Shown in pieces: positions 8,488 to 28,620 of a stretch of 64,000 bases of DNA (position 1 is its first letter; the number at the start of each line of letters is the position of its first letter). Source of the DNA: Lachnospiraceae bacterium. Lineage in GTDB: Bacteria; Bacillota; Clostridia; Lachnospirales; Lachnospiraceae. A program made the position numbers and the translations under genes. The stretch is from NCBI GenBank assembly GCA_910575155.1, contig CAJTDX010000001.1, positions 124,001-188,000 on the forward strand. Reading direction: 5' to 3'. The notes under the pieces are model-generated. The model was given only the letters and a program-made list of their open reading frames with translations. It was not told where the DNA came from and searched no databases.

Positions 8488-8582
8488 TCTTTCCTCCTTA
8501 TTTGAAATAGTTTTAAACGAAACACGGACGGATTTCCTCATTTTTTATGAGCGCGTTGATGTCTTTGCTGATAAGAGAACAA

Positions 8583-8605
8583 AGAATCCTGCTCTGCAGG
8601 ATTCT
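8583..8605. repeat. Perfect 10-bp inverted repeat upstream of the alarmone synthetase gene
   Basis: AGAATCCTGC (8583-8592) and GCAGGATTCT (8596-8605) flank a 3-nt loop, immediately beside the dispersed repeat. It can form a stable hairpin on either strand, but no T tract follows. Confidence 0.6.
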
Positions 8606-8610
8606 CCGCC

Positions 8611-8704: not shown

Positions 8705-8706
8705 CA

Positions 8707-8759
8707 AGAAACAGCCCGGTATCTTCCCATTATGGAAAAAGATGCCGGACTGTGTTTCT
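8707..8759 (-). terminator. Terminator of the galM-nth-DUF1015 operon
   Basis: A long imperfect hairpin (AGAAACA / TGTTTCT outer arms, CCGG and ATCTT inner arms) starts just past the DUF1015 stop codon. The minus-strand tail is TTGTTTTAT. The dispersed repeat begins immediately after. Confidence 0.75.
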
Positions 8760-8766
8760 CGCAGGC

Positions 8767-10005
8767 TTATTCTAAGGCGTGTATAAAGATTCCACTTCTT
8801 AACTTGGGTTCAAACCAGGTAGATTTGGGCGGCATCAGCAAATCTGCGTCCGCCACTGCAAACAGCTCCTGAATGGAAGTGGGATACATGGCAAAGGCTG
8901 CTGCACAGTCGTTCTGGCAGCGCCGTTCCAACTCCTCTGTACCCCGGATTCCACCCACAAAGTCAATCCTTACGTCTGTCTTTGGGTCTGTGATTCCCAA
9001 AACAGGAGCTAAAAGCTTTTTCTGCAGCAAAGACACATCAAGGCCTTCCACCGGGTCGTCGGAACAATCCTCCGGCCGGATACTGCATCTGTACCAGTTT
9101 CCTGCCAGATACATGGAAAATTCCCCTTTCTTTCCAGGTTTGATGTGCTCTCCTTTTAATAACTCCACTTGAAAAATTTCTGATACTTTATCTAAAAACT
9201 CAGTCTCAGACAGTCCATTCAGATCCCTGATCACACGATTGTAATCCATAATCATAAGCTGTTCATCCGGAAACAGCACAGAAAGGAAGTAGTTATATTC
9301 TTCTTCTCCGGTATAATCCGGATTCGCCATTCTGCGCATCTGTCCCACCCTCACTGCCGACGCCGCGCGATGATGTCCGTCCGCAATATATATTTCGCTG
9401 ATAGAGGCAAATGCCGCCTCAACAGTTTCTACTTGCGCCGGGTCAGAAACCACCCATACTCTGTGGCGGATTCCATCCTCTGACACAAAATCATATAACG
9501 ATTCTTTCTTTTTTACCATATTTACCACATCATTAATTGTCGGATTTGAACGATATGCCAGAAAAATCGGTCCTGTCTGGGCGTTGCAGGCGTTCACATG
9601 ATTAATACGGTCCTGTTCTTTTTCCGCCCTGGTATTCTCATGCTTTTTAATCACGCCCTGCTCATAATCATCAATGGATGCGCAGGCCGCAAGCCCGGTC
9701 TGAATCCTTCCATTCATGGTAAGTTCATATATATAATAACAATCCTGTTCCTCTTTCACAAAAGAACCGTCTTCTACCATTCCCCATAACGTATCATGCG
9801 CCTTTTGATATACTTGCGGGGCATAAGTGTCCACTTCATCCCCCAACTGCGTCTCTGCCCGGTCGATTTTTAAAAAGCTTTCAGGATTTTTTTCAACTTC
9901 TTTTTTCGCCTCGCTGCGGTTATATACGTCATAGGGAAGCGCCGCAATATGATCTGCTTTCTCCCTGCTGGGCCTGATTGCAGAAAAAGGTCTTATTCTT
10001 GCCAT
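8767..10005 (-). CDS. DUF1015 family protein
   Basis: 412 residues, matching the DUF1015 (PF06245) family by its start (RIRPFSAIRP, ALPYDVYN) and a central IYIADGHHRAASA motif. The DGHHR signature resembles the ParB/sulfiredoxin-type nucleotide pocket, and distant archaeal ParB-like proteins are ADP-dependent serine kinases; a kinase role here is only a possibility. Soluble, no signal peptide. Starts 19 nt after nth, so it is the last gene of a galM-nth-DUF1015 operon, which gives no pathway hint. Confidence 0.8.
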   Translation of the reverse strand: MARIRPFSAIRPSREKADHIAALPYDVYNRSEAKKEVEKNPESFLKIDRAETQLGDEVDTYAPQVYQKAHDTLWGMVEDGSFVKEEQDCYYIYELTMNGRIQTGLAACASIDDYEQGVIKKHENTRAEKEQDRINHVNACNAQTGPIFLAYRSNPTINDVVNMVKKKESLYDFVSEDGIRHRVWVVSDPAQVETVEAAFASISEIYIADGHHRAASAVRVGQMRRMANPDYTGEEEYNYFLSVLFPDEQLMIMDYNRVIRDLNGLSETEFLDKVSEIFQVELLKGEHIKPGKKGEFSMYLAGNWYRCSIRPEDCSDDPVEGLDVSLLQKKLLAPVLGITDPKTDVRIDFVGGIRGTEELERRCQNDCAAAFAMYPTSIQELFAVADADLLMPPKSTWFEPKLRSGIFIHALE

Positions 10006-10024
10006 ATTTCTTTCCTCTTGTCTT

Positions 10025-10669
10025 TCAATTATTTTCTAAGCCGTTACGGGCGCATAGTTCCCGGATACAACATCTTTCGCAATGCGGGCTGGTTCTTGCG
10101 GTACAGATCTCTCTGCCGTGATACACCAGACGATGGCAGAAATCGCTGCCTTCCTCCGGCGGAATCAGCTTCCACAATGCCATTTCCACTTTCCTGGGAT
10201 CCTTGATACGATCCACAAGTCCCATACGGTTCACCAGGCGGATACAATGGGTATCTGTGACAATTGCCGGCTTATGAAACACGTCGCCCATAATCAGATT
10301 TGCGCTTTTCCTGCCAACTCCCGGCAGTTCCAGCAATGCGTCAAAATCTTCAGGCACCATGCCGTCATATTTCTCATGCAGCAGCTTCATGCACGCGCTG
10401 ATATCCCGCGCCTTGCTCCTGCCAAGCCCGCAGGGCCTTACAATTTTCTCAATCTCTTCCACAGGAGCCTCTGCAAGCGATTTCACATCCGGATATTTTT
10501 CATAGAGTCCTTCCACCACCACATTGACCCTGGCATCGGTACACTGGGCAGCCAGACGCACGCTCACCAAAAGTTTCCATGCCTGATTGTAATCCAAAGT
10601 GCATCCTGCCTCCGGGTATTCCATCTTCAATCTTTGAATGATCTCTAACGCCAGTTCTTCTTTGGTCAT
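10025..10669 (-). CDS. nth: Endonuclease III (DNA glycosylase/AP lyase)
   Basis: 214-residue base-excision repair enzyme removing oxidised pyrimidines. It has the helix-hairpin-helix LPGVGRKSAN with the catalytic Lys, followed by the catalytic Asp in VTDTHCIRL. The C-terminal iron-sulfur loop has four cysteines (CTARTSPHCERCCIRELC); the first gap is seven residues rather than the six of E. coli and B. subtilis enzymes, and a fifth cysteine adjoins the third. Start supported by the downstream spacing from galM (20 nt) and MTKEELALEIIQ. Confidence 0.95.
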   Translation of the reverse strand: MTKEELALEIIQRLKMEYPEAGCTLDYNQAWKLLVSVRLAAQCTDARVNVVVEGLYEKYPDVKSLAEAPVEEIEKIVRPCGLGRSKARDISACMKLLHEKYDGMVPEDFDALLELPGVGRKSANLIMGDVFHKPAIVTDTHCIRLVNRMGLVDRIKDPRKVEMALWKLIPPEEGSDFCHRLVYHGREICTARTSPHCERCCIRELCARNGLENN

Positions 10670-10689
10670 TTATGATTTCCTTTCTGCTG

Positions 10690-11733
10690 TTATTTTACAT
10701 AAAAACGATAAATCGTTCTGGTAGTAAAAATCTCGCCTGCCTTCACAAGAGGAGAGGGAACATGTTCCTGATTCACAGCATTGGGATAGAACTGAGACTC
10801 CAGGCAAAAGCCGCAGCGGTCGCTGTATGCTTTGCCGTCTTTTCCAATCTGATCGCCAATATAGTTTCCCGCATAAAGCTGTACGCCGCAGCAGTCTGTG
10901 GACGCTTCCATGGCAATTCCTGTCTCCTCACAGTATGCGTTTGCCATAACTTTCATCTCTCCCGCCTTATCGCTGAGCACATAGTTATGGTCATAACCTT
11001 TGGTAAACTTCAATTGCTCAAAATCTGCTTCTATATCCTGTCCGATAGGTTTCATGGCGCGAAAATCCATAGGAGTCCCTTCTACCGGCGCAATCTCCCC
11101 TGTGGGAATAGATCCGGAATCGCGAACCGGATGATAAGCGTCTGCCAGAATCTGCAGCCTGTGATTCATAGCCGAGCCGCTGTCATGGCCTCCGAGATTA
11201 AAATAGGAGTGATTGGTAAAATTCATGACTGTCGTCTTGTCCGCCTCTCCCCGGTAACTGATTTCCACTGCGTCTTCATCTGTAAGGGTATATGTAACCT
11301 CCACGTTCAGATTCCCGGGAAATCCCTGTTCTTCCTCGGTACTCAAATGATAAAAAGTGATGCTGCTGCCGGTATGCTCTTTTACCTCCCAGACAACACT
11401 GTTAAAACCGTTGGGGCCGCTGTGAAGGCTGTTTTCATTTTCATTTGCCGGAATCTTGCACAGTCTGCCGTCAATCATCATCTGCGCCTTCTCAATCCGG
11501 TTGCCGTTTCTGCCTATGGTAGCGCCGAAATAGCAGGTGTGGCTGTCGTATTCTTCTGCGCTGTCATACCCTAATACCACGTCGCGCACAACGCCGTTCT
11601 TATCGGGAATCAGCACAGATACCAGCGTTGCGCCATGATCTGAGACCTTGATCACAGTATGTTTTTTATTTTCCAATACATATAAAGATGCTTTTTCCCC
11701 ACGTTTATTTATCCCAAATGCTGATGTTTGCAT
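10690..11733 (-). CDS. galM: Aldose 1-epimerase (galactose mutarotase)
   Basis: 347-residue cytoplasmic enzyme interconverting alpha and beta anomers of galactose/glucose at the entry of the Leloir pathway. Family motifs: GRNGNRI, SLHSGPNGFN (with a conserved His), NFTNHSYFNLGGH (catalytic His) and a C-terminal FCLESQFYPNAVN containing the catalytic Glu. Preceded by AAGGAGG. First gene of a three-gene unit with nth and DUF1015; no galK/galT nearby. Confidence 0.93.
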   Translation of the reverse strand: MQTSAFGINKRGEKASLYVLENKKHTVIKVSDHGATLVSVLIPDKNGVVRDVVLGYDSAEEYDSHTCYFGATIGRNGNRIEKAQMMIDGRLCKIPANENENSLHSGPNGFNSVVWEVKEHTGSSITFYHLSTEEEQGFPGNLNVEVTYTLTDEDAVEISYRGEADKTTVMNFTNHSYFNLGGHDSGSAMNHRLQILADAYHPVRDSGSIPTGEIAPVEGTPMDFRAMKPIGQDIEADFEQLKFTKGYDHNYVLSDKAGEMKVMANAYCEETGIAMEASTDCCGVQLYAGNYIGDQIGKDGKAYSDRCGFCLESQFYPNAVNQEHVPSPLVKAGEIFTTRTIYRFYVK

Positions 11734-11807
11734 TGTTGACCTCCTTCATAACTGTATTCATAAATATTTTCATTTGTTTTACTTCAGGCAAGCAAACGCT
11801 TACTTAT

Positions 11808-12626
11808 CTATTCTCCTATCAGTTTATCTGATTTCAAAATATGGTTTGACAGCCAGCCAAAGAGAAATTCCATCAGCTCCTCCAGATATTCCTGTTGATG
11901 ATCGTCCACCTGCTCCAAATCTATTTCTTCCAGCTTGGACACAAATGCCTGGTGTGCGATCCTCTGTGCATGAAGTCCCGGATAATGTATATTTTCCATA
12001 TACTTTTCCTCATCCTGGAAATGCTCCTTGGTATAATCGGTAAGTTCATTTAAGATCGCGACAATCTCGTCATACTTGTCGTGCAGAAGCTCTTCTTTTA
12101 CCAGTTCATTTGCTCTTCCTATAATTTCAAACAACGTCTTATGTTCCCCGTCAATCAGCGGAATCCCCGTCATATACTGTTCGCTGAATGCGCAGGGATT
12201 TACCCGTTCTCTCCATTTTTCCACAGGAGGCATTTTCCCGATCATAATATCGCTGCTCAAAATATGATGATACAGCCATCGGGTCAGATACCGCATCAAT
12301 TCATCCAACGTCTCCTGCTGCCCCTTTATTTCATCCATATTGGAAAAATCCAGACTGTTAATCTTCTCCCGAAATGAGAGGTGCTGCTTTTTCTGAAGTT
12401 CCAGTTCCGGATCATTAAGCGCCGCCATATGGGCTTCTTCACTGGCAAAGTGAACATCCGCATACTCTTTTAACTGCTCTAAAATCTGATGAACCTGATA
12501 ATATTTATCATCAAGAGCCTCATTATGCAGCAAATCCAGCGTATCATTGATTAATCCAAATAGTTTCTCATGCTGCTCATCAATTTCCCGGATGCCTGTA
12601 AGGCAGTCCTCTGTAAACTGATACAT
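11808..12626 (-). CDS. Tandem-domain bacteriohemerythrin
   Basis: 272 residues made of two hemerythrin-like four-helix bundles (~1-130 and ~140-272), each with the di-iron ligand pattern: domain 1 DEQHEKLF, HFASEEAHM and WLYHHILSSD; domain 2 DGEHKTLF, HFQDEEKYM and WLSNHILKSD. These domains bind O2 reversibly at a non-haem di-iron site; in motile anaerobes they serve in oxygen sensing or scavenging. Single bundles (~135 aa) are usual, so this is an internal duplication. No signalling output domain is attached, so storage or scavenging is more likely than sensing. Confidence 0.9.
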   Translation of the reverse strand: MYQFTEDCLTGIREIDEQHEKLFGLINDTLDLLHNEALDDKYYQVHQILEQLKEYADVHFASEEAHMAALNDPELELQKKQHLSFREKINSLDFSNMDEIKGQQETLDELMRYLTRWLYHHILSSDIMIGKMPPVEKWRERVNPCAFSEQYMTGIPLIDGEHKTLFEIIGRANELVKEELLHDKYDEIVAILNELTDYTKEHFQDEEKYMENIHYPGLHAQRIAHQAFVSKLEEIDLEQVDDHQQEYLEELMEFLFGWLSNHILKSDKLIGE

Positions 12627-12767
12627 ACCTTTTCCTCCTCTTCTTTGTCAGGTTATACATTGATTTTAAAATAATTCCTGAACAAAAGCAAGCCAGGAGC
12701 GGATATTCGTAATATCTTTTGCCAAAGCTTTTGTCATACGCCATGCGCTGCAAATATTTCCTCCAAA

Positions 12768-12819
12768 TGTTAACCATTTTATTTTTATAGTTGACATTTG
12801 TTGGAATCCTATTTATAAT
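12768..12819 (+). promoter_or_regulatory. bioY promoter with an overlapping BirA-type operator
   Basis: TGTTAAC (12768-12774) and GTTGACA (12790-12796) form an inverted repeat with one mismatch and a 15-nt spacer, the arrangement typical of Firmicutes BirA (biotin repressor) sites. The right arm is also the -35 hexamer TTGACA (12791-12796). A 17-nt spacer leads to a perfect -10 TATAAT (12814-12819). Biotin-loaded BirA bound here would block RNA polymerase directly. Confidence 0.8.
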
Positions 12820-12865
12820 ACAAATATATTTTTTATACGAAAGTAAAAGAAAGGAACATGAATGT

Positions 12866-13444
12866 ATGACATCAAACAGCGTTACCCCTCCAACTTCTGA
12901 AAAACAGAAATTTTCTGTACGCCAGCTTGCCGTAATCGGCGTTATGACAGCCGTTACCTGTATCCTGGCGCCTTTTTCCATCCCAATCGGCCCCGTGCCG
13001 GTCTCATTGACGAATCTTGCCATTTATTTTTCCCTGTATGTTCTTGGCATGAAAAAAGGAACTATTTCTTATCTGGTATATCTTCTCATTGGATTTATTG
13101 GGGTTCCGGTGTTTTCCGGCTTCACCAGCGGACCGGAAAAACTTCTGGGACCCACAGGAGGTTATCTGATTGGGTTTATTCCCATGGCTGTGCTGGCGGG
13201 CATTCTTATTGATAAGTTCAGCAATAACTGGATTATTGCTTTTCTGGGCATGGCCGCCGGCACGATTATATGTTACGGCTTTGGTACGGCATGGCTTGCG
13301 TATCAGGCGCATTTAGACTGGAAAGCCGCGTTATTCGCAGGTGTGATCCCCTTTATTCCAGGGGACGTCATCAAGATTGCGCTTGCCGCCGCGGCAGGGC
13401 CGGTAATTCGCAGACAGTTAATACGTGCCGGACTGTTTTTCTGA
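12866..13444 (+). CDS. bioY: Biotin transporter substrate-binding subunit BioY
   Basis: 192-residue S-component of an ECF transporter that captures biotin in the membrane. After a short cytoplasmic N-terminus it has about six transmembrane helices. Family motifs are IPIGPVPVSLTNLAI, LLIGFIGVPVFSGF, GPTGGYLIGF and FIPGDVIKIALAA. The ATG at 12866 follows AAAGGAA; longer upstream frames overlap the promoter. No ECF ATPase genes are adjacent, so it probably shares a housekeeping energising module. Regulated by biotin through the operator at 12768-12796. Confidence 0.93.
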   Translation: MTSNSVTPPTSEKQKFSVRQLAVIGVMTAVTCILAPFSIPIGPVPVSLTNLAIYFSLYVLGMKKGTISYLVYLLIGFIGVPVFSGFTSGPEKLLGPTGGYLIGFIPMAVLAGILIDKFSNNWIIAFLGMAAGTIICYGFGTAWLAYQAHLDWKAALFAGVIPFIPGDVIKIALAAAAGPVIRRQLIRAGLFF

Positions 13445-13495
13445 ATCTCCATACCTTTATTCTGGTATTACTCTAAATAAACTCAAACCTGCAGT

Positions 13496-13535
13496 AAGGG
13501 CTGTGACATGAAGCAATTAAAATGTCACAGCCCTT
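13496..13535. terminator. Bidirectional terminator between bioY and the restriction-modification genes
   Basis: A perfect 14-bp stem (AAGGGCTGTGACAT / ATGTCACAGCCCTT) with a 12-nt loop lies between the converging bioY and specificity-subunit genes. It has only short T runs on either side. Confidence 0.6.
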
Positions 13536-13575
13536 CTCCGATTATAAAAAACGCACATTCAGCTTACCTGCCTTG

Positions 13576-15024
13576 TCATTTTGCATAAATAACCTCTTCA
13601 TCCATTATTTTTAAAGCCTGCTCTTCCAATTGATAGGCCTGATATCGTTTTCTGTTGGCCTGCAATGCTAAATCATTGATTTCACTTTGCATCTCTTTCG
13701 ATTTTAAAACAGGAATCTCAACGGAAGCCAGACTTTTATCATCAATCATATCTACAACCGAACCATATGTCTGTCTGCACACAAGGGTTCTTCCGTAATC
13801 ACTGTTTAAATAAATATATATGTATCCTGCAATTGCGTCGGATGAGGGAATTAACTTAAGCACATTTTGACTGACGGCATATCCATCCCAGTGTTTTGGA
13901 ACAAGCGCGGCAGTTCCTATGGTTCCGCGGTCTGTAACTAAAATGGTATTTTCAAGAACTTTCAGCTCCTTTTCATAGCGTGCTTTATGTATCGGTTTTG
14001 ATAAAAACTTATCCGTCTGAGGAATGAGCCGGGTAATTTCTTTGCCGCCTATAAACGGATAACCATATTTTTCCTGCACATAGGTACGCTTGAAAACACC
14101 TGCTAAAATTATATTTTTACTTATTCTGGGATCGCTCATTGTCGTAATTTCCGCAGCATATTTTTTCATATGAGCAACAATCGCATCAACAACCGGCATA
14201 TGATAAGATGCATCGACACGACCTCTCAGTTTGCTTAACTTCACATTAAATGTATTCACCGGACTTTCTGTTTCCATTTCAAGCTCATGTATGTCCGGCA
14301 ATTTTAATTCATCCCTCAGCAGTCTCTCTGCCTTATCGATCAATTCATTCGATTGATCTCTCAGATCATATGAGTGAACGATCAGATCATGAATTTTCTT
14401 TTTAAGCTGCAGGGGCGCATTGGGGATCGGCACTTCTGCCAAATGCTGCGGTTCAATATGAGTGATAACTGCGCCGTAACGATTTGCCAGCAATATTTTA
14501 TTTCCTATTTTACTTTTCAGATAAGTATATATGTATCCCTGATCCATTGTGTCTTTACAGTCTATCCGAAGTAAATCATGACTGAATACCTTATGCTCTA
14601 ATGTCTTAGAAACATAAGTTACTTTACCAATCGTTCCAGAACAAGTCATTAAAACCTGTCCCTTTTTTACCCGCAGCCCCTCTATGTCTGTGTCCGTCAA
14701 ATGAGACAGATACCCGTCGGGATCCGGCTTTACATCTTCGATGGAAGATGGCTGAAAAATAGGGATATCCGATTTTTCCACCCATATACGCTTAAAACGG
14801 GCGCATGTATAGGAGGTAGTCAAACCATCTTCGCCGCCAATCTTTGTAAGAGGATATTTGCTTGATTTTATTAGCTGCAGGGCTTGTTTCGCTTCTATAT
14901 CATATACGCTTGCCTCCAGCCGTTTTCCGTGTGAAAAAATATCCGAAAGCGATACAGAACACCATTTTAATGAAACGCCTTTGCCATGTTCCGCTTTTGC
15001 AAAAGTTTGGTCCTGATCTACCAT
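13576..15024 (-). CDS. Restriction-modification specificity subunit (HsdS-like, two target recognition domains)
   Basis: 482 residues with two repeated halves, each a target-recognition domain followed by a helical spacer. The repeat is visible as VLMTCSGTIGKVTYV near the middle of half 1 and ILVTDRGTIGTAALV in half 2. Each half is followed by an exposed pattern (YIYTYLKSKIGN / YIYIYLNSDYGR) and a coiled coil. This is the type I HsdS layout, recognising a bipartite DNA target and guiding the methylase. Start at 15024 has CAGGAGGGA upstream and overlaps the methylase stop by 7 nt, indicating translational coupling. Confidence 0.85.
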   Translation of the reverse strand: MVDQDQTFAKAEHGKGVSLKWCSVSLSDIFSHGKRLEASVYDIEAKQALQLIKSSKYPLTKIGGEDGLTTSYTCARFKRIWVEKSDIPIFQPSSIEDVKPDPDGYLSHLTDTDIEGLRVKKGQVLMTCSGTIGKVTYVSKTLEHKVFSHDLLRIDCKDTMDQGYIYTYLKSKIGNKILLANRYGAVITHIEPQHLAEVPIPNAPLQLKKKIHDLIVHSYDLRDQSNELIDKAERLLRDELKLPDIHELEMETESPVNTFNVKLSKLRGRVDASYHMPVVDAIVAHMKKYAAEITTMSDPRISKNIILAGVFKRTYVQEKYGYPFIGGKEITRLIPQTDKFLSKPIHKARYEKELKVLENTILVTDRGTIGTAALVPKHWDGYAVSQNVLKLIPSSDAIAGYIYIYLNSDYGRTLVCRQTYGSVVDMIDDKSLASVEIPVLKSKEMQSEINDLALQANRKRYQAYQLEEQALKIMDEEVIYAK

Positions 15025-17039
15025 GCGATTCCCTCCTGCCGCTTCCATTCCGCAAAAATTACAGGGACATCCGGAGTTTGATCATCTTCCGCTTTTTTCT
15101 TTCGTTCATGAGAAATAATGTTATCAGGCTCTCCTGTTTCCCTCTGATCCGATATCTGTTCTGTATCCGGAATCAAAATTTCATTCCCTTCTTTGTCGCG
15201 TCTGAATATTGGATTTCCCCGTTTATCATGGCCAATTTTCTCCACCATTGCCATAAAAATATTATAATCCGACATTTTTCCGCTCTTTTCCTCCATATCT
15301 TTTTGTTCCTGGGTCTTCTTTTGCAGAACTAACACGGACGTCTGCGTACCGTTGCGCGGCTGAAATGTATCTGCATGTAAATCTATACTTGCCACAATAC
15401 GGTGATTCTGAATCAGCCATTCACGAATATATCCCAATCCTGGTGAGCCAAGAATAGAATCTGGTAAAACAATACCCATTCTGCCGCCCGGTACAAGCAA
15501 TTGGGTACAGCGCTCTATGAATAAAATCTCCGGAGGAACAGACGACTGCAGCTTCTGCGTTTTGATCCATGTCCCTGATTTCCTGTCGTTGAACCAAATA
15601 TGCGCCAGTTCATATTGTTCCAGTACGTTTTTATCTTTAATGGGAATTTTACTGCCAAACGGAGGATTTGTGACAATTACATGAAAATGCCCGATCGTAT
15701 TGTGATTTCGCAATTCCATCTTATTAATTCCCAGAGCTTCTGCAAGTTTCGTTCGAAATTCATCATTCCATTCATGGGGCGGAAGCAAAGAATTTGTCTG
15801 CAAAATATTGCCGCTGCCATCATTGTTCATCACCATATTCATTTTCGTAGCTTTTACAAGATCCGGATTAATATCAAATCCAAAATAATTCGAGGCGGCC
15901 ATTTCAGAAATTTTATCCTGAAAAACGCGTAATGTATCGCTATCCCAATCCTCTTTCTTTATGCCAATTGCATCCGCATAATCTTTTTCAAGCTGTAAAA
16001 TTACATGCGTCATGGCAGTGACCAGAAAACCTCCAGTCCCGCAGGAACTGTCCAATACTTTTTCGTCAATCGCCGGATTAATCATTTCCACAACCATCTT
16101 CATGACGTTTCGCGGTGTAAAAAACTCTCCTCTGTCGCCGCGGAGATTTGCACCCACAATTTCTTCATATGCTTTTCCTTTTATATCAACATTGGTGTTC
16201 AGCAGGCTGTATTTTTGTATCTCGCTTACTATATAGGCAAGACTGCGTGGTGAAAGCTTAATTTCATCATATGCATCAAAAATTTTTCCATATTTCTTCT
16301 TGACTCTCTCAAAAATTTTAACAATACGTTTATATACCGTCAATTGTCCATCGGGATTAGAACGTTCTTCAGAAGTAGTGTAAAATTCCAGTGGGACAGG
16401 TATATTGCGTTCATCCTCAATCTTACAGAAGATTACTTTTAACAATTCAAAAAAAGCCGGCTGCTTTTGCAATCCATCATTAATGTGGATATGATTATGA
16501 CATGTTTTAAATACAAATAACAGATTATCAGCATAAGCATTTTTTAACGATGTTCTTTGGGGTCGATTAATGTGATCCAGATTGCCGTCCGCTGATGGAA
16601 TATCATTATAATCCATGAAAGCAATATTTCCCTGAGCATTTATGTATTTACGGAATACTTCTTTTTGTTTTCCATTCGTCCACATTCCCCATTCACAATT
16701 AGGGCAGGCAGACATATATGATTTTAACTGCTCTACGCCCTCTTTCATATTGCGGGCGTCAATCGTTTCTTTTTTGCATTCGATAATGAGTTTTATATGT
16801 TCCTGCACCTGATTTATGCAGTTTTTATCAAAAATAACAAGATCTGCGCGAGGCTTTTTGGAGCCAATCTGCAAAACATACTCAACTGAAATCTGCCCCG
16901 GCGCATACTTATGTTCATTGATCAGACGTTTTTCAATCGTCTGCCTTACATATTCCTCCGGTGTATCATTACGGAACTTGCCATCTATATAATCACATAT
17001 TTTCCCTTCTGGAATTACAATTACTTTTGTTTCATTCAT
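15018..17039 (-). CDS. Fused restriction endonuclease-adenine methyltransferase subunit
   Basis: 673 residues. The N-terminal ~150 residues look like the HsdR N-terminal nuclease domain with a PD-(D/E)xK core: Asp66 (RADLVIFD) and Glu87-x-Lys89 (IIECKKE). This is followed by a helical linker and an HsdM-type gamma N6-adenine methyltransferase domain: motif I from Asp330 (DSSCGTGGF), catalytic NPPF at 458-461, and GEFFTPRNVM before motif I. With the separate two-domain S subunit this is the plan of type IIB enzymes such as BcgI (RM subunit plus S subunit). No HsdR translocase gene adjoins. Start 17039 follows AAAGGAGAGG. Confidence 0.85.
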   Translation of the reverse strand: MNETKVIVIPEGKICDYIDGKFRNDTPEEYVRQTIEKRLINEHKYAPGQISVEYVLQIGSKKPRADLVIFDKNCINQVQEHIKLIIECKKETIDARNMKEGVEQLKSYMSACPNCEWGMWTNGKQKEVFRKYINAQGNIAFMDYNDIPSADGNLDHINRPQRTSLKNAYADNLLFVFKTCHNHIHINDGLQKQPAFFELLKVIFCKIEDERNIPVPLEFYTTSEERSNPDGQLTVYKRIVKIFERVKKKYGKIFDAYDEIKLSPRSLAYIVSEIQKYSLLNTNVDIKGKAYEEIVGANLRGDRGEFFTPRNVMKMVVEMINPAIDEKVLDSSCGTGGFLVTAMTHVILQLEKDYADAIGIKKEDWDSDTLRVFQDKISEMAASNYFGFDINPDLVKATKMNMVMNNDGSGNILQTNSLLPPHEWNDEFRTKLAEALGINKMELRNHNTIGHFHVIVTNPPFGSKIPIKDKNVLEQYELAHIWFNDRKSGTWIKTQKLQSSVPPEILFIERCTQLLVPGGRMGIVLPDSILGSPGLGYIREWLIQNHRIVASIDLHADTFQPRNGTQTSVLVLQKKTQEQKDMEEKSGKMSDYNIFMAMVEKIGHDKRGNPIFRRDKEGNEILIPDTEQISDQRETGEPDNIISHERKKKAEDDQTPDVPVIFAEWKRQEGIAW

Positions 17040-17180
17040 TATGGCCTCTCCTTTCATCCTGATCCTTCCCGGATTAACTGCCAACTCTATTAATAACGCT
17101 CTCATTATAGCACAAACGTTCTGATATCTCAATGTATATGGCATGATTTTCTTTCATCAATAAAGAATGATTCCATCATA

Positions 17181-17225
17181 ATAAAAAGCTGCCGCACCCA
17201 TGATGTTCCATCACAGATGCGGCAG
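17181..17225 (-). terminator. Terminator of the M60/cohesin-like operon
   Basis: CTGCCGCA (17189-17196) pairs with TGCGGCAG (17218-17225), with an inner TGATG/CATCA stem. On the minus strand it is followed by CTTTTTATTA. It lies 12 nt past the stop codon of the gene at 17238. Confidence 0.8.
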
Positions 17226-17237: not shown

Positions 17238-18605
17238 TTATTTTGCTTTCACTTTTACTGCGGAGCTGTAATTACCGCTCAGGCTCTTGCCTTTCTTTGG
17301 CTTCTCAAATGCGCATACTTTATAGTACCATACTTTGGAACCCTTGGGCATACTCTCTGTAAATGTAAGGCCAGAAGCCTTGTTAATGGTTTTTACCAGT
17401 TTATATTTACCGGATTTTGTCTTACTTCTGTATACCTTATATCCGGCTGCCCTGGATACCTTTTTCCATTTGAGGCTGACTGAAGCGCTGCTGCGGGAAA
17501 CTTTCAGTTTCGGCGCCTTTGTCTTGGCTGACTCCGTTTTGCTGAAACTTCCTGTAACTGTATTTCCGGATTTGCTGATATACGCCTTCACCTTATAATA
17601 ATAGGTCTTTCCGGAAGGATGTTTTAAGGTGCAGGAAGTAGTTCCTCCCTTTTTAATATCTTTTACAAGTTTATACGTTCCATTTTTCTTAGCGCTGCGG
17701 TAAATCTGATAACCGCTGGCCTTGCTGACCTCCCGCCAGGTAAGCGTAACCTTTGAGGAATTTTTATACTCTGGTGAGAACGCTTTTACCTGATTGGGAC
17801 CTACGGTAATGTTTACCACTGGACTGTAGTCTCCGTAGGTGATACTGCCGTCCGCGTCTTTCTTAAATGCACGAAGCTTGAAAGAATGATCTGTAGCATA
17901 AGCATAATTCTTAGCGAGTGAAGTTGCTGACGCAGACAGCGTCGTCACACGCGTATTCTTTCCGCTTTTCACCTCATAGAGCACATAGCCGTCGGCTCCT
18001 TCAACCTTATTCCAGGAAAATGACACAGACCTGGAACCATTTTTTACAGAAGCTTTTAACAGGGGAACTTTTCCAAAAGCCGCTCCGCTTGTTTCGATCA
18101 GAACAGGTTTGGAATTACCCAGAGTTTCCGTCATGGCAGAAACCCCGTTGGCGTCCATATATTTTACCACAGGACTTTCATTGTTATCCAGTTCTCCCAA
18201 AGTTTCCACTTTAATTTTATACTTCTGGCTGGTGGGGCGCACCGACAGAGTTCCAATCTTTGCAGATTCGCTGCCGCCAAAGATACTTTTGTCTTTCTGA
18301 CCGGATAAAATCAAATCCACCACATAGGTTCCTTTTTCCCCTGGCATGATAACAGCGTCTTTAATCTCACTCTTAACTGCGCTGTCAAATTTGAAAACCG
18401 GAGCATTCATTGTTCCGCTGTTCACGGAAACACGAAGCTGCATCCGCAGAGATGTAATCACTCCTGATTTGCCCGCTGGTATATCTACAGAAACAGTAAC
18501 ATCTTTATCTTTAACTGTAAGATTATTTTCTGCCGCATCTGCTGTCAGCGGAACGATCGTGAAAAGGAAAAATGACACCATTATTATTTTTAACCATTTT
18601 TTCAT
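17238..18605 (-). CDS. Secreted protein with cohesin-like N-terminal domain and three FN3-like repeats
   Basis: 455 residues. The signal peptide is residues 1-~25 (MKKWLKIIMVSFFLF..., cleavage near ADAA). Residues ~28-165 form a beta-rich domain (DVTVSVDIPAGKSGVITSL ... IGTLSVRP) with the look of a cohesin/X-type fold. Three fibronectin-III-like repeats follow, ~185-275, ~280-370 and ~372-455; the last two are closely similar (ASGYQIYRSAKKNGTYKLVK versus AAGYKVYRSKTKSGKYKLVK). No LPXTG or SLH anchor. It starts 20 nt after a dockerin-containing peptidase gene, so a cohesin-dockerin partnership is plausible; the cohesin call is inference. Confidence 0.65.
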   Translation of the reverse strand: MKKWLKIIMVSFFLFTIVPLTADAAENNLTVKDKDVTVSVDIPAGKSGVITSLRMQLRVSVNSGTMNAPVFKFDSAVKSEIKDAVIMPGEKGTYVVDLILSGQKDKSIFGGSESAKIGTLSVRPTSQKYKIKVETLGELDNNESPVVKYMDANGVSAMTETLGNSKPVLIETSGAAFGKVPLLKASVKNGSRSVSFSWNKVEGADGYVLYEVKSGKNTRVTTLSASATSLAKNYAYATDHSFKLRAFKKDADGSITYGDYSPVVNITVGPNQVKAFSPEYKNSSKVTLTWREVSKASGYQIYRSAKKNGTYKLVKDIKKGGTTSCTLKHPSGKTYYYKVKAYISKSGNTVTGSFSKTESAKTKAPKLKVSRSSASVSLKWKKVSRAAGYKVYRSKTKSGKYKLVKTINKASGLTFTESMPKGSKVWYYKVCAFEKPKKGKSLSGNYSSAVKVKAK

Positions 18606-18625
18606 TTTAGCCTCTCCTTGTACCA

Positions 18626-21600
18626 TCAATTATTTTTGCTGCCTTTGACTGTAATGGAAGGAAGGGTATCCGGAACAGTGATAATCTGGGTATCACTGAC
18701 GATTCGTTCTCCTTCAAGTGTCTTGGCGTCGTCCACGCGGTATAATTCACCGCGAACCTTCATGCCTTTTAAGGAAGCTTCATCCCACTGTCCGGGTTCT
18801 ACATAGTATACCCATGTTCCCTCTGTGGTTTCGCCTTCATTTCCTTTCTCAGGCAATTCTGCGAAAATCACCTGTCCAGCCTCGACATTTCCGTCTTTTG
18901 CTCCTATTACATTTCCTTCTGTATCATAGAGCATAACCACGTTATAAGCCCAGTTTCCGCGATAAGTTCCGGTAAAGATCAGTGAACCTTTCTTAATAAC
19001 ATCTTCCGGATTGTCTCCGTACTGGTAATCTTCTGATAAAACGCCGACTGCCTTCTCTCCGCCTGTCGTTTCCATAAATTCCAGATTATCTCCGGAAGGT
19101 CCGCAGAAGTCAATTTCTTTGATTACGATATCACCGGCCTGGGAAATTGTAAGCCTTACATATCTGGCATCATAGGTTCCAATAAAGTTCTCGCGCGCGT
19201 CCTCTTTTACAGAGTCAAACCAGAGCGTCTGCACTTCTTCCCCTGTTCCTGCCAGACTTGCGTCATCTGTTTTCACTTTTGTCCATACTTCGCCGTCTGT
19301 ACTGATTTCAACGGTCACTTTTTCCAGAGCGCTTCCCTGGTATTTCAGGGAGGTTATCTGCTGCGCTTTATGCATATCCACTGTAATTACCGCTGTTCCG
19401 CTGCTGGTTCCGGTATAAGTGCCAGCCTCGGCAATGCTGTTATCCAGCACGCGGTCAATGCTGTGTTCTTTCTTTGCGGCAACATTGCCTGTTGAATCAA
19501 AGCCGCTGTCCGGATCGTCTTCTGTGCTCTCAATCTCTTTGTCGTCCTGAGAAACCATATCAGTTTCAACGGTCCATTCTGTTTTGTCCAGTTCGCCGTC
19601 TGTCTGAATCTTAATAGATCCTGCCTGCGCCGCACTGGAATAGTTCATATACTGGTCTACTGCACGCACCTCATATTCCATTACTCTGTTATTGACAGTG
19701 GAAACCGTGTCTGTATAAACAGTAGACTCTGCCGTATCAATCGGCACAAAACCAACCACCTGTGTCTCCTTCTGGCCATTGGACGTCATGCTGCGGCTGA
19801 TTTCATAGCCCAGAATCAGTTCTTTCTTCTCAGTGGTACTGATCTTCAGCTCTACCTGATTGGATTTAGCAGAAACAGACGCAGTCACTGTATTTTTACC
19901 TTTTACGCTGTTTTCCTCTGTCTCCGGATGATCCATACGGTAATCACGCGCTTCATTATTGATATAGTAAATTGCTTTTGTTTCCGGCGTTCCATACTTA
20001 TCGGCGTATGCAATGGTTTCCTCATCCGGAATCATCCCCCACCGCTCAAAGAATGGAAGAATATTCTTATTCGCTGCCGCACATGCCAGACGCATCAGAT
20101 TCTGGTCTGTACCTCCGTTCAGAGTTAAGCCTTCCTGAGGCGCTTTTCCAGGATTTCTGGAATAAGTATCAACTCTTGCAAAGAAGAGATTATTAAACTG
20201 GTCTTCATAGTTGTCATAAATGTGCTGGTCATTCTTATTATTGTCAAAGAAAAGATGAAGCTGCCAGTACAATGCAAGCTGTGTAAATACATTAGAGGCA
20301 CGCCCTACAGATCCGGAAGTCACCTTTTTATATACATTTTCCTGGGTAAAACGTCTCGTGCCCGTCAGAAGCTGCGCAAAGTAATTATTTGTAACTTCTG
20401 CAACCGCATATGTTCCCTGGTTAATATCATGACCGATTTCATGGCCGATTCCCCAGCCAAAGCCGGACATATCATTGGGTGCGCTTACCACGGTAGTGGA
20501 ACCCCACTCAATTCCCACATGGTTGCCGGACGCATACATAAATGCTCCTGCAAACATTCTCATGTAACGAATATTCAAATGCTGTGACGGCCATGCATTA
20601 TTTCCTCTTTCTGTTCCTGCATCGTCGCTCAGTCCTTTATGCTGATAAAACAGCGTCATGGCCTGTTCCATAGCTTTCAGTGCATTGTCAAGTTTTGTTG
20701 TCTTGTCTTCTGCGTTTTTGATACCTGCCCATACCTGTGTAGCCGGTACAGAATGCATCATTTCCCGCATCATGATATCTGTCGTATTAAGAATACAATT
20801 GGTCTGGTCATACGCATAATCAACATTGGTTTTACCTGTATGCTGTTTCTCATGCTCTTCTTCCAGATGCTTCACATATTCCTCAAGCTCTGTCACATAT
20901 TCCCGAATTGCCGCTGTCCGTTCTTCTCCGGTCTTTCCATAGACGCTGAGAACCGGAATATCGCTGCCTCCATTGATACGTACCGCATATTTATCATTGG
21001 CGTTGTTTCCGGTATAGCTGACATATACCTGTCCTCCGCGCTCTACCGTACCGGTACTTATCGTTGGAACTGTAACTTCATTTCGGCCGACTTTCAGATT
21101 CTGGCCTTTGAAAAAGCCTCCGGCTTCTGAATGGTTCTGTGTAAATACAATCTGCAGATTTGCCGCTTCTCCCCACTTCTTGGTATTATGACCTACATAA
21201 ACCAGAAGCTTTTCGCCGGCGCGCGCTGATTTGCCAACCGGCTGCCAGGAGTTTAAGCCGCCAAATCCGAGATGTTTATCTTTCTGCGCTGTAATCTGAT
21301 TTTCCACCTCATATGCCGGATCCAGATTCGCAGTCAGAATATCTCTGGCATTCTTAATCTCTAACGCAAGTTCTTCATGGAGTATATGTTTCTCTCCGCT
21401 TACGGTATCTACCATATTCAAACGGTTCTCCAGTTCATCCAATGTCGCGGCTGTCACATCCGCTCTTAAAGTGATATGCATCTCATCTGTGTACAATGCC
21501 ATGATATCGTCTTCCAGTGAATCATACTCATGGAAACGAATTTCACCTACCATCATGTTGATTCTCTGATATCCTGTTCCAAAGGACAAATGAATCTTGT

Positions 21601-24040
21601 TTGCAGTAATCGCGCTGTTCAGTTTTACAATATAATACGGATTGTCATATTCATCTGTTCTGGCAACCAGGCTTGCAGCCACATTTTTCTCCGTATTGGG
21701 ATCCTCTGTGGTCCAGTAACCTACTCTTACCTGGCTCATTGCCGCCTGCTGGTTCGCTGCTGCATAAGTAATATAACTGATCTGATAATCCTGATCCAGC
21801 GTGATCGTCATTCCTCTGTCGTTTGCAGGATATACCACGCCGTCATCCCAGTCTTCTTTGGTCCAGTAGGAAGCATAATCATCATCTACCAGTCCCCAGG
21901 CAGTTTTACCTTCTGTATCCAAAACGCTGTTTTCCATATGCGCTCCGCCATGTCCGCCGTAAACTGCCGCTGTAACGTGGCTGGTCTTCTTTCCTGTTCC
22001 GTTGGAAGTATTAATCAGTTTATACTCAGGAAGCTTTGGCGCAACACCTTTGGCTGCCGCCGCATGATGCAGGGAAGCCGGTCCCCAGCCAAGGTCATTC
22101 CATCCTTTGACATACACTTCATACTCAGCGCCTGCCTCCAGAGACATAATCACATATTTGTTCTCTGTGAGCATTCCGGTGCCCTGCGGCGTCTCTTTAA
22201 AGCCTTCCACAACCGGACGGAACGCTGTATCAGCTTCTCCTGACTTCTTATAATATACCATGTATCCGTTCGAATCTTCCATATCCTTCCAGGAAACGGT
22301 AATGGAACAATAACCGCCTTTCGCGCTTACATTATCCGGCGCTGCCGGCAGACTCTGCGCTTTCACTGTTGCTATTTTTTCCTCCGACCAGGGGCTGTTC
22401 CAGCCGCCGTTCACGGAACGCACTTTAATCGTATATTTGCCATTATAAACTAAATTTTTATCTAAAATAGCTGTAATAATATGTTCTGCATTTGACACAC
22501 GCACGATCTGCGTCTCGTCTGTTCCTCCTTTTACCGGACCGGATACAGAGACTTCATACCCTGTTACATTCTTCTGAGGGGTCCAGGAAGCGGTAATCAT
22601 TTTATCTCCCGGAATCAAATCTTTGATCGACGGGATATCAAGCTGTGGCGGCGGAACCCTGTCTTCCATATTATTGACAAATTCCACTTTGGCAATATTT
22701 ACCAGAGGCTCCGTCTTCTTCGTTCCGGTAATGCGAATCAAAACGCGCTTCACAGCAATCTGTGTTCCAAAATCAAGCACCATGGATCCGTCTGATTCGG
22801 TCTGCACGGACGCGGCCGTTGCTCTTGCCATCCGCAGACTTGCTGTGGAAGCCTGGCTTTCTGCTGCCAGCGGGACAGACATTGTCTGCTCCTGTCCATT
22901 TTCGTCCACATAGACAACAGACACTTCTCCATCCGTAATAGCGCTGGGAACTGCTTCTCCCGGCTCTGCCTCTGCCGGAGCGCAGATCGTCATTCCCTGC
23001 ATCTGAGCAGGCTCCTCTTTGTCTCCTGCCAATGTATAATCAAGCGCCACCGGATTATCTGCTGAAATTGCTTTTTCAGAATCTGCCGGAACCAATCCAA
23101 GGCTTCCCGTATGGTTTAAAAATCCTTCCATCCCCACCGCCGTGGTGCCCTCTGTTGTCTGAAGATCGGTAAATCTTATGATTTTCTGCCGCTCAACAGC
23201 CGATTCTTTTACCTGACCGTTCATACTCTGAACAACGCACTGCAAATCTGCAAGATCTGTCTTATTATCGCTGTTAACGTCGCATTCTGTCCCCTGCGGA
23301 TTATTTCGAACCGCCTTAAGCACAGTCTGGACGTCTTCATTTGTGATCACTCCATCCTGGTTTACATCTCCCGGACGCAGCCATCCTCTTGCAGCCTTGC
23401 CTTCCATAGAAGTCTCCGCTGTACAAACTCTGATTTTCTTCTGATATCCTTCTTCCATTTCAACAGACTGGCTGTATGTTGCAAATTTCGCCGTCTGTAT
23501 CTGAACCATATAAGTTCCGGGATTGAGACTGAATCTTGCCGTCCTGGAATCTGCGTCGCTAAAATCCAGCTCCTGTGTCTGAGCTGCGCCTTCGGCGCCG
23601 CTGACCTTCACCTCTACCTTTCCCTGAACCGGAATTACTGCCGAGGTAACTTCTACCTCCAGAACACTTCGTTCTTCCGGCACATTAATGCCCTCAGACG
23701 CCTCTTTGCCATCTATGTTCTTCTGCGTCTGAACATCCTCTGTGCTCGGCAATGATTCCACTTCATCTGCATTTGCCTGAGGTTCTGTACCTTCTGTTTC
23801 ATCCTTAGGCCCTTGGTCCGCTGTTTTTTCTTCACTTTCCACATCGGGGGCTTCTTCTGAGAATCCCGGGACATCCGCAATGTCCGTATCTGCTCTGTTC
23901 ACATCTGACTTAACTTCGCTGTCTTCTTGGGAATAAACATTGTCTTCCTGCAAAGATCCTGCCTGCGCCAGTACAACATCACCGGCCCAGGCCTGCAAAA
24001 TCAGACTTGCAGTAAGCAGCACCGCCATCAATCGTTTCAT
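18626..24040 (-). CDS. Secreted M60-family metallopeptidase with dockerin, FN3 and F5/8-type C domains
   Basis: 1804 residues. Signal peptide 1-27, then an acidic low-complexity linker (~30-125), a beta-sandwich, and a dockerin at ~222-275 with two EF-hand-like loops (DVNQDGVITNED and DVNSDNKTDLAD). Two FN3 domains and an F5/8/CBM32-like domain (~700-840) follow, then the M60 region. Catalytic gluzincin motif: His1200-Glu1201 ... His1204 (GHEIGHDINQ), with a downstream ligand candidate Glu1215. The C-terminus has an FN3-like and a second F5/8-like domain. M60 enzymes cleave mucin-type O-glycoproteins. No sortase signal. Start 24040 follows AGAAAGGA. In an operon with the cohesin-like gene. 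Confidence 0.88.
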   Translation of the reverse strand: MKRLMAVLLTASLILQAWAGDVVLAQAGSLQEDNVYSQEDSEVKSDVNRADTDIADVPGFSEEAPDVESEEKTADQGPKDETEGTEPQANADEVESLPSTEDVQTQKNIDGKEASEGINVPEERSVLEVEVTSAVIPVQGKVEVKVSGAEGAAQTQELDFSDADSRTARFSLNPGTYMVQIQTAKFATYSQSVEMEEGYQKKIRVCTAETSMEGKAARGWLRPGDVNQDGVITNEDVQTVLKAVRNNPQGTECDVNSDNKTDLADLQCVVQSMNGQVKESAVERQKIIRFTDLQTTEGTTAVGMEGFLNHTGSLGLVPADSEKAISADNPVALDYTLAGDKEEPAQMQGMTICAPAEAEPGEAVPSAITDGEVSVVYVDENGQEQTMSVPLAAESQASTASLRMARATAASVQTESDGSMVLDFGTQIAVKRVLIRITGTKKTEPLVNIAKVEFVNNMEDRVPPPQLDIPSIKDLIPGDKMITASWTPQKNVTGYEVSVSGPVKGGTDETQIVRVSNAEHIITAILDKNLVYNGKYTIKVRSVNGGWNSPWSEEKIATVKAQSLPAAPDNVSAKGGYCSITVSWKDMEDSNGYMVYYKKSGEADTAFRPVVEGFKETPQGTGMLTENKYVIMSLEAGAEYEVYVKGWNDLGWGPASLHHAAAAKGVAPKLPEYKLINTSNGTGKKTSHVTAAVYGGHGGAHMENSVLDTEGKTAWGLVDDDYASYWTKEDWDDGVVYPANDRGMTITLDQDYQISYITYAAANQQAAMSQVRVGYWTTEDPNTEKNVAASLVARTDEYDNPYYIVKLNSAITANKIHLSFGTGYQRINMMVGEIRFHEYDSLEDDIMALYTDEMHITLRADVTAATLDELENRLNMVDTVSGEKHILHEELALEIKNARDILTANLDPAYEVENQITAQKDKHLGFGGLNSWQPVGKSARAGEKLLVYVGHNTKKWGEAANLQIVFTQNHSEAGGFFKGQNLKVGRNEVTVPTISTGTVERGGQVYVSYTGNNANDKYAVRINGGSDIPVLSVYGKTGEERTAAIREYVTELEEYVKHLEEEHEKQHTGKTNVDYAYDQTNCILNTTDIMMREMMHSVPATQVWAGIKNAEDKTTKLDNALKAMEQAMTLFYQHKGLSDDAGTERGNNAWPSQHLNIRYMRMFAGAFMYASGNHVGIEWGSTTVVSAPNDMSGFGWGIGHEIGHDINQGTYAVAEVTNNYFAQLLTGTRRFTQENVYKKVTSGSVGRASNVFTQLALYWQLHLFFDNNKNDQHIYDNYEDQFNNLFFARVDTYSRNPGKAPQEGLTLNGGTDQNLMRLACAAANKNILPFFERWGMIPDEETIAYADKYGTPETKAIYYINNEARDYRMDHPETEENSVKGKNTVTASVSAKSNQVELKISTTEKKELILGYEISRSMTSNGQKETQVVGFVPIDTAESTVYTDTVSTVNNRVMEYEVRAVDQYMNYSSAAQAGSIKIQTDGELDKTEWTVETDMVSQDDKEIESTEDDPDSGFDSTGNVAAKKEHSIDRVLDNSIAEAGTYTGTSSGTAVITVDMHKAQQITSLKYQGSALEKVTVEISTDGEVWTKVKTDDASLAGTGEEVQTLWFDSVKEDARENFIGTYDARYVRLTISQAGDIVIKEIDFCGPSGDNLEFMETTGGEKAVGVLSEDYQYGDNPEDVIKKGSLIFTGTYRGNWAYNVVMLYDTEGNVIGAKDGNVEAGQVIFAELPEKGNEGETTEGTWVYYVEPGQWDEASLKGMKVRGELYRVDDAKTLEGERIVSDTQIITVPDTLPSITVKGSKNN

Positions 24041-26601: not shown

Positions 26602-28620
26602 CTAAGGATACCATTTACATATTTTGCAGTATTCCGCTTCTGTCAGTCCATAGGCAGAAGCAATGCTTCGGTCCGCTTCATTATAATATTGCCGGCGGAT
26701 TTCTGAATTTGGGGCAGACAAGATTTTTTCTGCCAGAAAAATAATTTCCTGCTGCTCTGTACTGGAAACCACCGGAATCGGAAGCTGCTCTAAATAGCTG
26801 CGCAGCACTTTTACAGAACAGAATTTCCTGTCATACAGAAACTGAGCGGTACGGGAATTAAGTACTGCAAGAATATATTTCATATCCATGCCCGGAATAT
26901 GGGAAATGAGAATATTACAGCTATTTAAAGACAATCTCTGCCTGTCATCATATGCAAACACCAGGTTTTTGCATATAAAGCGGTAAAAAAGCTTTTCTTC
27001 TGCTCTGTAACAGCTCTCCGGCGCAGTCTGCTGAAAATACTGCGGTTCATAGCGCAGATACTGCCTGGCCTCACGGATCACATATTTTTCTATATCGCCG
27101 CCCTTTAGCACGATCTCATTTTCAGCAGTCTTTTGCTTCTGTATATATTTTTTATTATTTCCAGTTACAATTCCCATTGCAAAATCCGCCTGGCCTTTCA
27201 GAAACACCACTCTGGCCCGCTTTTCTATCTGATCTAAAATCTTGTATTCTTCATCCGGCATATGAAAATTGAAGCATTCCGCGTCCACAATGCGGCTGCC
27301 TGTTATCTCAAATTCCTGTTGCTCTTTGTAAATTTGCATCCCACAGGCGGTCAGCGGTCTGCCTGTTTTCTGCATTTTAAGAATAATGGCCGGACATTGC
27401 ACCTGATGAAACACATTTCCAATATAAGTGATACTTTGAATCTGTACCTGCTCTGCCAGAAGTTCACGAATCTGCCGATGTGATTTTACGTACAATACAG
27501 CCTCTGGCAGCACAAAGGCGATAATTCCTCCAGTTTTGATTCTCTGAAGAGATTGTTCCAGAAACAAATCATACGCTTCCCCGCTTTTTCCCGTAAAAAA
27601 GCGCTCTTTTAAAAATTGCTTCCGCACAAACTCCTGAGAACTGCCCCAGGGCGGATTTCCCAAAATCACATCATAATGTTCCTGGTCCCGCTCCATCAGA
27701 AAATCCCGAACCTGGATCCGCTCCCGAATCAGAGAAACCGGCGCTTCGGGACAGGCGATTGCAAGATTTATTCTGGCAATCTGCACCGCCAGAGGATCAA
27801 TATCCGTGCCATACAGCTCCTCCATATGCCATGTTCGGCTTAACTGCAGCAGAAAATTTCCGGTTCCGCAGCAGGGATCCAGAATTTTAAGCGGCTGCTT
27901 CCCCGTCAAATCTTCCTCTAAACACAGCCGTTTCAGCAGTTTTTGCACAATATGTGCGGGCGTATAATATGCCCCCGACGCTTTGCGCACTCCGAGATTT
28001 CGAAAAGACAGATAGAGCATCCCCAAAAGATCCTCTCCCTGTTTCAGACAATAATGAATTCCAGCAGAGAGAGCCTCCGTCTTCTGCCGTACCTCAGAAC
28101 CCCCGGGCGTCATATTTTCTCCCAACAGCTCCTCAATAAAGCCGTCGTATGGCTCCAGGTTTATCTCTCCCTGCTGATAATGACGCAAATAGTTATCGGT
28201 AAAATCATATTCTTTCCCTTCTCTCTGACAAAAAAGCTGCAACGCACACTCTCCAAGGATTTCCCGAAGCTGCAGTTCAGAGAGCGTCTGTTCTTTCAAT
28301 TTAACCGCCAAATCGCAAATCACAGAAATATTTTCTGACGAATGGGAAAGATAGCTGGCGTAAACGCCGCTGCCACTGATATATTTCTTATTTCTTCGAT
28401 TCTTTAAAACATTCGAATCCCCGTTTTTCAGTTCTGACAGAAACTTCCGTACATATTCTTTTGAAAAATACGGCTTCCCCTTCCACTCTCTGTCAGGCGC
28501 AAGTTTTCCCAGCCGCAGCCAGTTTCTGCCCGTGGCTTCCGACACCGACAAAATATGGCAAAATTCTTTTATAGAAATTATTTCTTCCTGGTTAATCTTT
28601 GAGCGTTCTTTTGGATCCAT
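26602..28620 (-). CDS. Solitary N6-adenine DNA methyltransferase with N-terminal HTH (Eco57I/TaqI type)
   Basis: 672 residues. The N-terminus has a MerR/excisionase-like HTH (~15-65: ISIKEFCHILSVSEATGRNW). After a helical region comes a gamma-class methyltransferase: GAYYTPAHIVQKLL, motif I ILDPCCGTGNFLLQL and the catalytic NPPW at 322-325. The C-terminal ~250 residues look like a TaqI-type target-recognition domain (IVTGNNKKYI, LNSRTAQFLYDRK, LEQLPIPVV). No nuclease motif was seen in it or its neighbours, so it is an orphan methylase, or a type IIG enzyme whose nuclease is unrecognised. AAGAAGG precedes the start. Confidence 0.8.
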   Translation of the reverse strand: MDPKERSKINQEEIISIKEFCHILSVSEATGRNWLRLGKLAPDREWKGKPYFSKEYVRKFLSELKNGDSNVLKNRRNKKYISGSGVYASYLSHSSENISVICDLAVKLKEQTLSELQLREILGECALQLFCQREGKEYDFTDNYLRHYQQGEINLEPYDGFIEELLGENMTPGGSEVRQKTEALSAGIHYCLKQGEDLLGMLYLSFRNLGVRKASGAYYTPAHIVQKLLKRLCLEEDLTGKQPLKILDPCCGTGNFLLQLSRTWHMEELYGTDIDPLAVQIARINLAIACPEAPVSLIRERIQVRDFLMERDQEHYDVILGNPPWGSSQEFVRKQFLKERFFTGKSGEAYDLFLEQSLQRIKTGGIIAFVLPEAVLYVKSHRQIRELLAEQVQIQSITYIGNVFHQVQCPAIILKMQKTGRPLTACGMQIYKEQQEFEITGSRIVDAECFNFHMPDEEYKILDQIEKRARVVFLKGQADFAMGIVTGNNKKYIQKQKTAENEIVLKGGDIEKYVIREARQYLRYEPQYFQQTAPESCYRAEEKLFYRFICKNLVFAYDDRQRLSLNSCNILISHIPGMDMKYILAVLNSRTAQFLYDRKFCSVKVLRSYLEQLPIPVVSSTEQQEIIFLAEKILSAPNSEIRRQYYNEADRSIASAYGLTEAEYCKICKWYP

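Follow-up and report, generated by a model that had tools for sequence, protein, structure and literature searches.

Two adjacent genes in the 64,000-nucleotide stretch of Lachnospiraceae DNA that we analysed (the window) probably constitute a surface display module that pairs one enzyme with one cohesin. In the mechanism that we propose, the first gene would supply a secreted M60 metallopeptidase that bears domains of the glycan-binding type and, towards its N-terminal end, an X module with a dockerin shaped like those of type II (cell attachment). The second gene would supply a secreted protein whose single cohesin-fold domain receives the X-dockerin in a calcium-dependent manner. The rest of this partner would fix the enzyme at the envelope, in many relatives through an anchor of the membrane, sortase, S-layer or wall-binding kind, and in the window's own clade probably through strongly basic FN3 repeats; without a multivalent scaffoldin, one enzyme would be displayed per cohesin. 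Domains, predicted folds, adjacency, co-occurrence and the anchor types of relatives are the direct observations behind this proposal. A broader reading, for which we see the balance as even, is that the partner domains represent a separate cohesin class, hitherto unrecognised and missed by Pfam, whose evolution has been coupled one-to-one to the X-dockerin of a single enzyme family. Such pairs would form a scaffoldin-free minimal display system, distributed among the Lachnospiraceae of the gut and families close to them, that retains the cohesin head and exchanges the anchor (membrane, sortase, S-layer, CWB2, choline-binding or basic FN3).

The gene pair and its predicted domains

Both open reading frames are on the window's minus strand, and by reading their likelier starts are ATG 24040 and ATG 18605. 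The M60 (enhancin/O-glycopeptidase-like) metallopeptidase gene (18626..24040, minus strand; start and ribosome-binding site assigned by reading) encodes 1804 amino acids with an N-terminal signal peptide. The partner gene, second of the pair (17238..18605, minus strand), encodes 455 amino acids comprising a signal peptide, the cohesin-fold domain and then FN3-type repeats. The 20 bp separating the M60 stop from the partner start (18606..18625, minus strand) hold AAGGAGAGG, a good ribosome-binding site upstream of ATG 18605. Located 3′ of the partner gene, an intrinsic terminator-like hairpin of 17 pairs with a T run (17189..17225, minus strand) is the strongest of nine terminator-like sites in the window, where 6.6 are expected; a promoter search for the pair gave weak matches only. 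We read the layout as a putative two-gene operon in which the partner gene is probably co-transcribed with the M60 gene. NCBIfam offered no name for either protein at E 0.01.

Pfam identifies Peptidase_M60, Dockerin_1, FN3 and F5/8 type C domains in the first protein. Its catalytic domain (20036..20722, minus strand; PF13402, 42.2 bits against a cut-off of 25.8) carries the HEXXHX(8,28)E motif as HEIGH at residues 1200-1204 (20443-20429) followed by the invariant E1215, and a C-terminal F5/8 type C (CBM32-like) domain lies at 19139..19411 (minus strand; PF00754, 31.9 bits, cut-off 28.2). The M60 protein was found as a single copy in the genome. Because members of the M60 family elsewhere are described in the available extracts as mucin O-glycopeptidases, a mucin-type glycoprotein is the likely substrate, by analogy, of the window enzyme as well. 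The HEXXH motif is intact in 99 of 100 M60 relatives. The exception (L039; contig 35 of genome G308, M60 at 4446-9794) has a broken zinc motif, HVIGH, and still has its dockerin and partner, possibly as a non-catalytic binding form; the same genome holds a second, intact pair (L164).

The dockerin (23225..23371, minus strand; residues 224-272) scores 26.2 bits with PF00404 (cut-off 22.9) and has two calcium loops, DVNQDGVITNED from residue 225 (D225-D236) and DVNSDNKTDLAD from residue 254 (D254-D265), in agreement with the double-loop dockerin near the N-terminus of an M60 enzyme that a sequence-only reading of this DNA had described. Its calcium-position residues are unchanged across 16 relatives with identity as low as 25%, and D225, D236, D254 and D265 are retained in 92-96 of 96 dockerins. 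Directly before it, at about residues 125-218 (23387..23668, minus strand), AlphaFold2 (AF2) and VIA place an Ig-like, seven-strand X module. The AF2 model of the X-dockerin, built from a 96-sequence alignment, has a pLDDT of 94 and a pTM of 0.87. The top eight rows of its VIA comparison are all type II X-dockerins, with Z of 10.2-11.3 over 133-139 residues spanning both modules, and Foldseek concurs (5k39_B, E 3.8e-7). The X module is thus predicted to pack on the dockerin as in CipA, and the assembly sits at residues 125-272 of an 1804-aa enzyme rather than at the C-terminus of a scaffoldin.

For the partner, Pfam reports FN3 and GH85_C and no cohesin. An AF2 model of its N-terminal domain (18093..18536, minus strand), based on an alignment of nine genus relatives, has a pLDDT of 83 and a pTM of 0.80. 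Foldseek returned a single match at E <= 0.001, the cohesin-like module 2jh2_C of Clostridium perfringens (E 3.6e-4). By VIA the best match is 4uyp_C (Z 10.5, rmsd 2.8, 126 aligned), rows 1-31 are all cohesins (Z 10.5 to 8.1) and the first non-cohesin is a pilin at Z 8.1, so that cohesins lead common beta sandwiches by about 2.4 Z units at the top. Type I cohesin folds resemble the domain more (Z up to 10.5) than do those of type II, which reach no more than Z 8.4. On these models the partner N-terminal domain is predicted to be a cohesin jelly roll. The structure prediction against cohesins that the sequence-only reading had proposed thus yielded a cohesin fold and not another one, and its description of the next gene as encoding a secreted protein with a cohesin-like first domain followed by FN3 repeats holds at the level of the predicted fold, with FN3-like repeats after it.

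The likeness is one of fold. None of the 100 members of the partner-domain family matches the PF00963 profile, hhalign against 22 PF00963 cohesins from the same bacterial family gave probabilities of 1.4% and 1.1%, and no cohesin appeared among the matches of partner-domain profiles to solved structures. With no PF00963 match in 100 and hhalign at about 1%, we rejected membership of PF00963 and file the domain as a cohesin-fold domain only. A survey in Ruminococcus likewise describes cohesins that were missed by HMMs and found by structure prediction only, according to the part of that report available (PMC11557425).

Anchoring of the partner

Simple scans detected a C-terminal transmembrane segment in 44 of 100 non-identical partners, nine of these 44 with a sortase-like TG motif. 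Of the same 100 proteins, up to 8 carry choline-binding repeats, 23 carry FN3 and 14 carry FIVAR; single relatives carry SLH (L220), CWB2 (L229) or LPXTG (L233) by Pfam, and about half of the 100 have no recognised anchor. Since the pair recurs across many gut bacteria and the partner is often fixed to the surface, the arrangement is probably a simple way to hold one enzyme on the cell.

In the window pair itself, Pfam and scans found no LPXTG, SLH, choline-binding, CWB2 or transmembrane segment, in line with the earlier observation that neither protein has a cell-wall anchor. The partner tail from residue 181 (17241..18068, minus strand) consists of FN3/GH85_C-like repeats with a pI of 10.2 (57 K/R against 13 D/E in 275 aa), and the M60 enzyme is acidic (pI 4.6). 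As basic FN3 repeats are all that this partner offers, we regard the tail as a candidate wall-retention region and infer that the protein may be held on the wall through it.

The sequence-only reading had instead suggested a small secreted complex for mucin attack, built by cohesin-dockerin pairing. Its pairing part is borne out by the predicted fold and by the near-perfect co-occurrence and adjacency described below; that the two proteins pair and are then released together as a small free complex is an unlikely outcome, though the best placed of the alternatives. It draws on the lack of all the listed anchors in the window pair, and FN3 repeats do occur in free secreted enzymes. Weighing against release are the 44 of 100 partners with a C-terminal transmembrane segment and others with wall-binding modules, the resemblance of the X-dockerin to cell-attachment dockerins and the pI of 10.2 of the window's own FN3 tail, and display at the cell surface remains our preferred reading.

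Linkage of the partner domain to the X-dockerin

Within the genus, the partner domain is present in 9 of 29 genomes and the M60 gene is its immediate neighbour in all nine, while the remaining flanking genes vary among many of them. A profile of these nine sequences matched 10 of 397 genomes of the family, and among the eight of these from other genera the partner lies directly downstream of M60 in seven and is fused to it in one (L041). On the M60 side there were 557 relatives in named genomes; we took the 80 best, without regard to the partner, and iterated the partner profile on those loci with position information left unused. The iterated profile found the partner directly downstream of M60 in 75 of the 80 loci: all 75 matches among 2584 ORFs sit in that position, and 0 of the 2509 other ORFs match. 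Four of the five misses have <=309 bp of contig left, and in the fifth (L150) the profile missed an adjoining secreted protein with LPQTG that scores over the cut-off of TIGR01167. A dockerin is present in 91 of 97 M60 proteins examined, the other six all being cut at the N-terminus by contig ends.

In the reciprocal test, we ran a 100-sequence partner profile against the 397 family genomes. It detected the partner domain in 35 of them; the X-dockerin is present in 37, which include all 35, and the two extras (G187 and G368) have dockerin-like stretches on proteins without M60. The Fisher test for this co-occurrence gives 3.6e-48, a value made optimistic by the relatedness of the genomes. The 36 partner matches comprise 32 immediately downstream of M60, two fused (G247 and G126) and two on other contigs (G070 and G186), where the M60 contig ends. 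One of the 32 (L162) had been missed by the first profile, was read by eye and was then found by the wider profile.

Adjacency of M60 and partner, among differing flanking genes, is also seen in further families of the class and in records under the titles Eggerthella and Erysipelotrichaceae. M60 and cohesin are fused in three proteins (L041, L160 and L231), which could self-assemble. In one of them, L041, the fused cohesin is followed at the C-terminus by another dockerin-like stretch, different from the internal dockerin, a hint that the protein joins a larger assembly.

M60 proteins without a dockerin served as controls. The partner accompanies none of four in the family sample (L153-L156) and none of 15 in the class sample (L216-L218, L232, L234, two in L235, L236-L241 and two in L242). 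As a separate observation, L154 has two long adjoining ORFs (1650-14371) with similar C-terminal transmembrane tails, the second being the M60 without dockerin, which appears to carry its own anchor.

The other 14 M60 proteins of the class sample have a dockerin. Of these, L231 is a fusion, another is truncated by its contig, and for 12 the next gene encodes a secreted protein. The sequence profile joins only four of these 12, plus fused L231, to the partner family. Profile-profile comparison joins the SLH-bearing class partners, at 72% for L220, L222 and L223 alone, and mixed-group comparison with the cohesin family gives 96.7% for all 12 and 93% for the eight of L219-L224, L226 and L227. The group L219, L224, L226 and L227 alone, compared with the window's cohesin family, scored 0.1% by hhalign; the kinship of these four with the partner family is suggested by position, secretion and the mixed-group comparison.

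The pairing of X-dockerin and partner domain is therefore strongly supported by genomics, and from it we infer the binding itself. A quite improbable alternative is that the genes cooperate without mutual cohesin-dockerin binding, the partner serving as chaperone, inhibitor or substrate-binding co-factor and the dockerin meeting another cohesin. The partner sequence is indeed unlike known cohesins, and a GH2-type protein of the genome has another cohesin that passes the Pfam cut-off; this alternative leaves aside that the partner domain tracks the dockerin-bearing M60 exactly (35 of 35 genomes), that it is absent beside dockerin-less M60 proteins and that its predicted fold is that of a cohesin. 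That the X-dockerin is a mere structural domain and the adjacency a conserved operon without contact is very improbable: the dockerin does not sit at a protein end, and in a distance-correlation test of covariation it did not stand out (partial correlation 0.19, with X at 0.295 and two unrelated M60 regions at 0.29), but the adjacency persists from one genus to other families among different flanking genes and three fusions exist.

Relation to known cohesin-dockerin systems

Surface display through a cohesin and a dockerin has precedents. In the material available from PMC5141474, the X-dockerins of Clostridium thermocellum attach to cell-surface cohesins, and direct binding of enzymes by single surface cohesins is already known: in ScaD and ScaG, with a single type I cohesin, one surface cohesin likewise holds one dockerin enzyme. 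ScaD and ScaG differ in being part of a full cellulosome, in binding many enzymes and in having recognised cohesins, whereas here the cohesin is encoded beside one peptidase gene and is unrecognised by Pfam, and the dockerin comes with an X module. The type II X-dockerin/cohesin pair of CipA/ScaA has the shape predicted for our X-dockerin (Z 10.2-11.3, 133-139 residues), and in many relatives of the window partner the cohesin side is surface-anchored; here the X-dockerin is internal, near the N-terminus of an enzyme and not at a scaffoldin end, and the cohesin-fold domain of the partner comes nearer to type I.

In a mucin setting, the dockerin glycosidases and single cohesins (X82) of Clostridium perfringens are likewise non-cellulosomal, and 2jh2 is the top Foldseek match of our partner domain. 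There, as outlined in PMC12997984, both halves are on glycosidases, whereas here the cohesin is on a non-catalytic partner beside a peptidase gene. The same source, in the parts available, describes the mucin-degrading cohesin-dockerin complexes of Limousia (2026). This mucinolysome likewise relies on cohesin-dockerin pairing to act on mucin and includes peptidases with dockerins and a cohesin protein anchored by sortase, but it uses multi-cohesin scaffoldins and many enzymes and was found with Pfam models (PMC12997984). A search of that kind, as described, would miss the unrecognised single cohesin here. For M60-like/PF13402 peptidases, which share the family and the HEXXH...E motif, the accessible part of a 2012 study tabulates a dockerin on two M60-like proteins; its main text does not contain the word cohesin and describes no partner (PMC3267712). 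Open-licence literature on M60 with dockerin or cohesin, on Lachnospiraceae cohesins and on surface display held no description of this pair; within that literature, the dedicated M60 pair and the Pfam-invisible cohesin appear to be new.

Searches for cohesin-dockerin complexes generally rely on the number of Pfam cohesins in multivalent scaffoldins. In a common gut lineage this plug and socket probably serves a single peptidase, through a socket that such searches miss. If so, surface-held mucin-type peptidases in Lachnospiraceae could be predicted from their sequences, and tests of gut mucus attack and protein engineering would both gain a new orthogonal cohesin-dockerin pair.

The remark of the sequence-only reading that there is no other cellulosome gene here holds for the window but not for the genome, where one more dockerin and one PF00963 cohesin score over cut-off on other contigs, in or next to GH2 beta-galactosidase-type proteins. 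With this single PF00963 match genome-wide, which counts Pfam-visible cohesins only, and one cohesin per partner, we found no multi-cohesin scaffoldin of the cellulosome or mucinolysome kind. On contig 9 (L005, 5150-12807) a GH2 beta-galactosidase ORF is followed, with a 4 bp overlap, by an ORF with NPCBM, dockerin and FIVAR domains and, by eye, a cohesin-like stretch too; these may be one frameshifted gene or two genes. On contig 4 (L006, 4983-12089), a GH2 protein of 2368 aa combines a cohesin scoring above its Pfam cut-off with FIVAR and Flg_new repeats and by its domains may represent a second, C. perfringens-like cohesin/dockerin set of this genome.

Among the neighbouring genes of the window, 13576-17144 hold a Type I-like restriction pair, in which HSDR_N is joined to an N6 methylase in one protein and a specificity subunit follows; the pair is conserved beside the partner gene in L016 and absent there in L017. 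The gene at 26602-28620, for a DNA methylase of the Eco57I/TaqI type that includes a specificity domain, may be a second restriction-modification gene.
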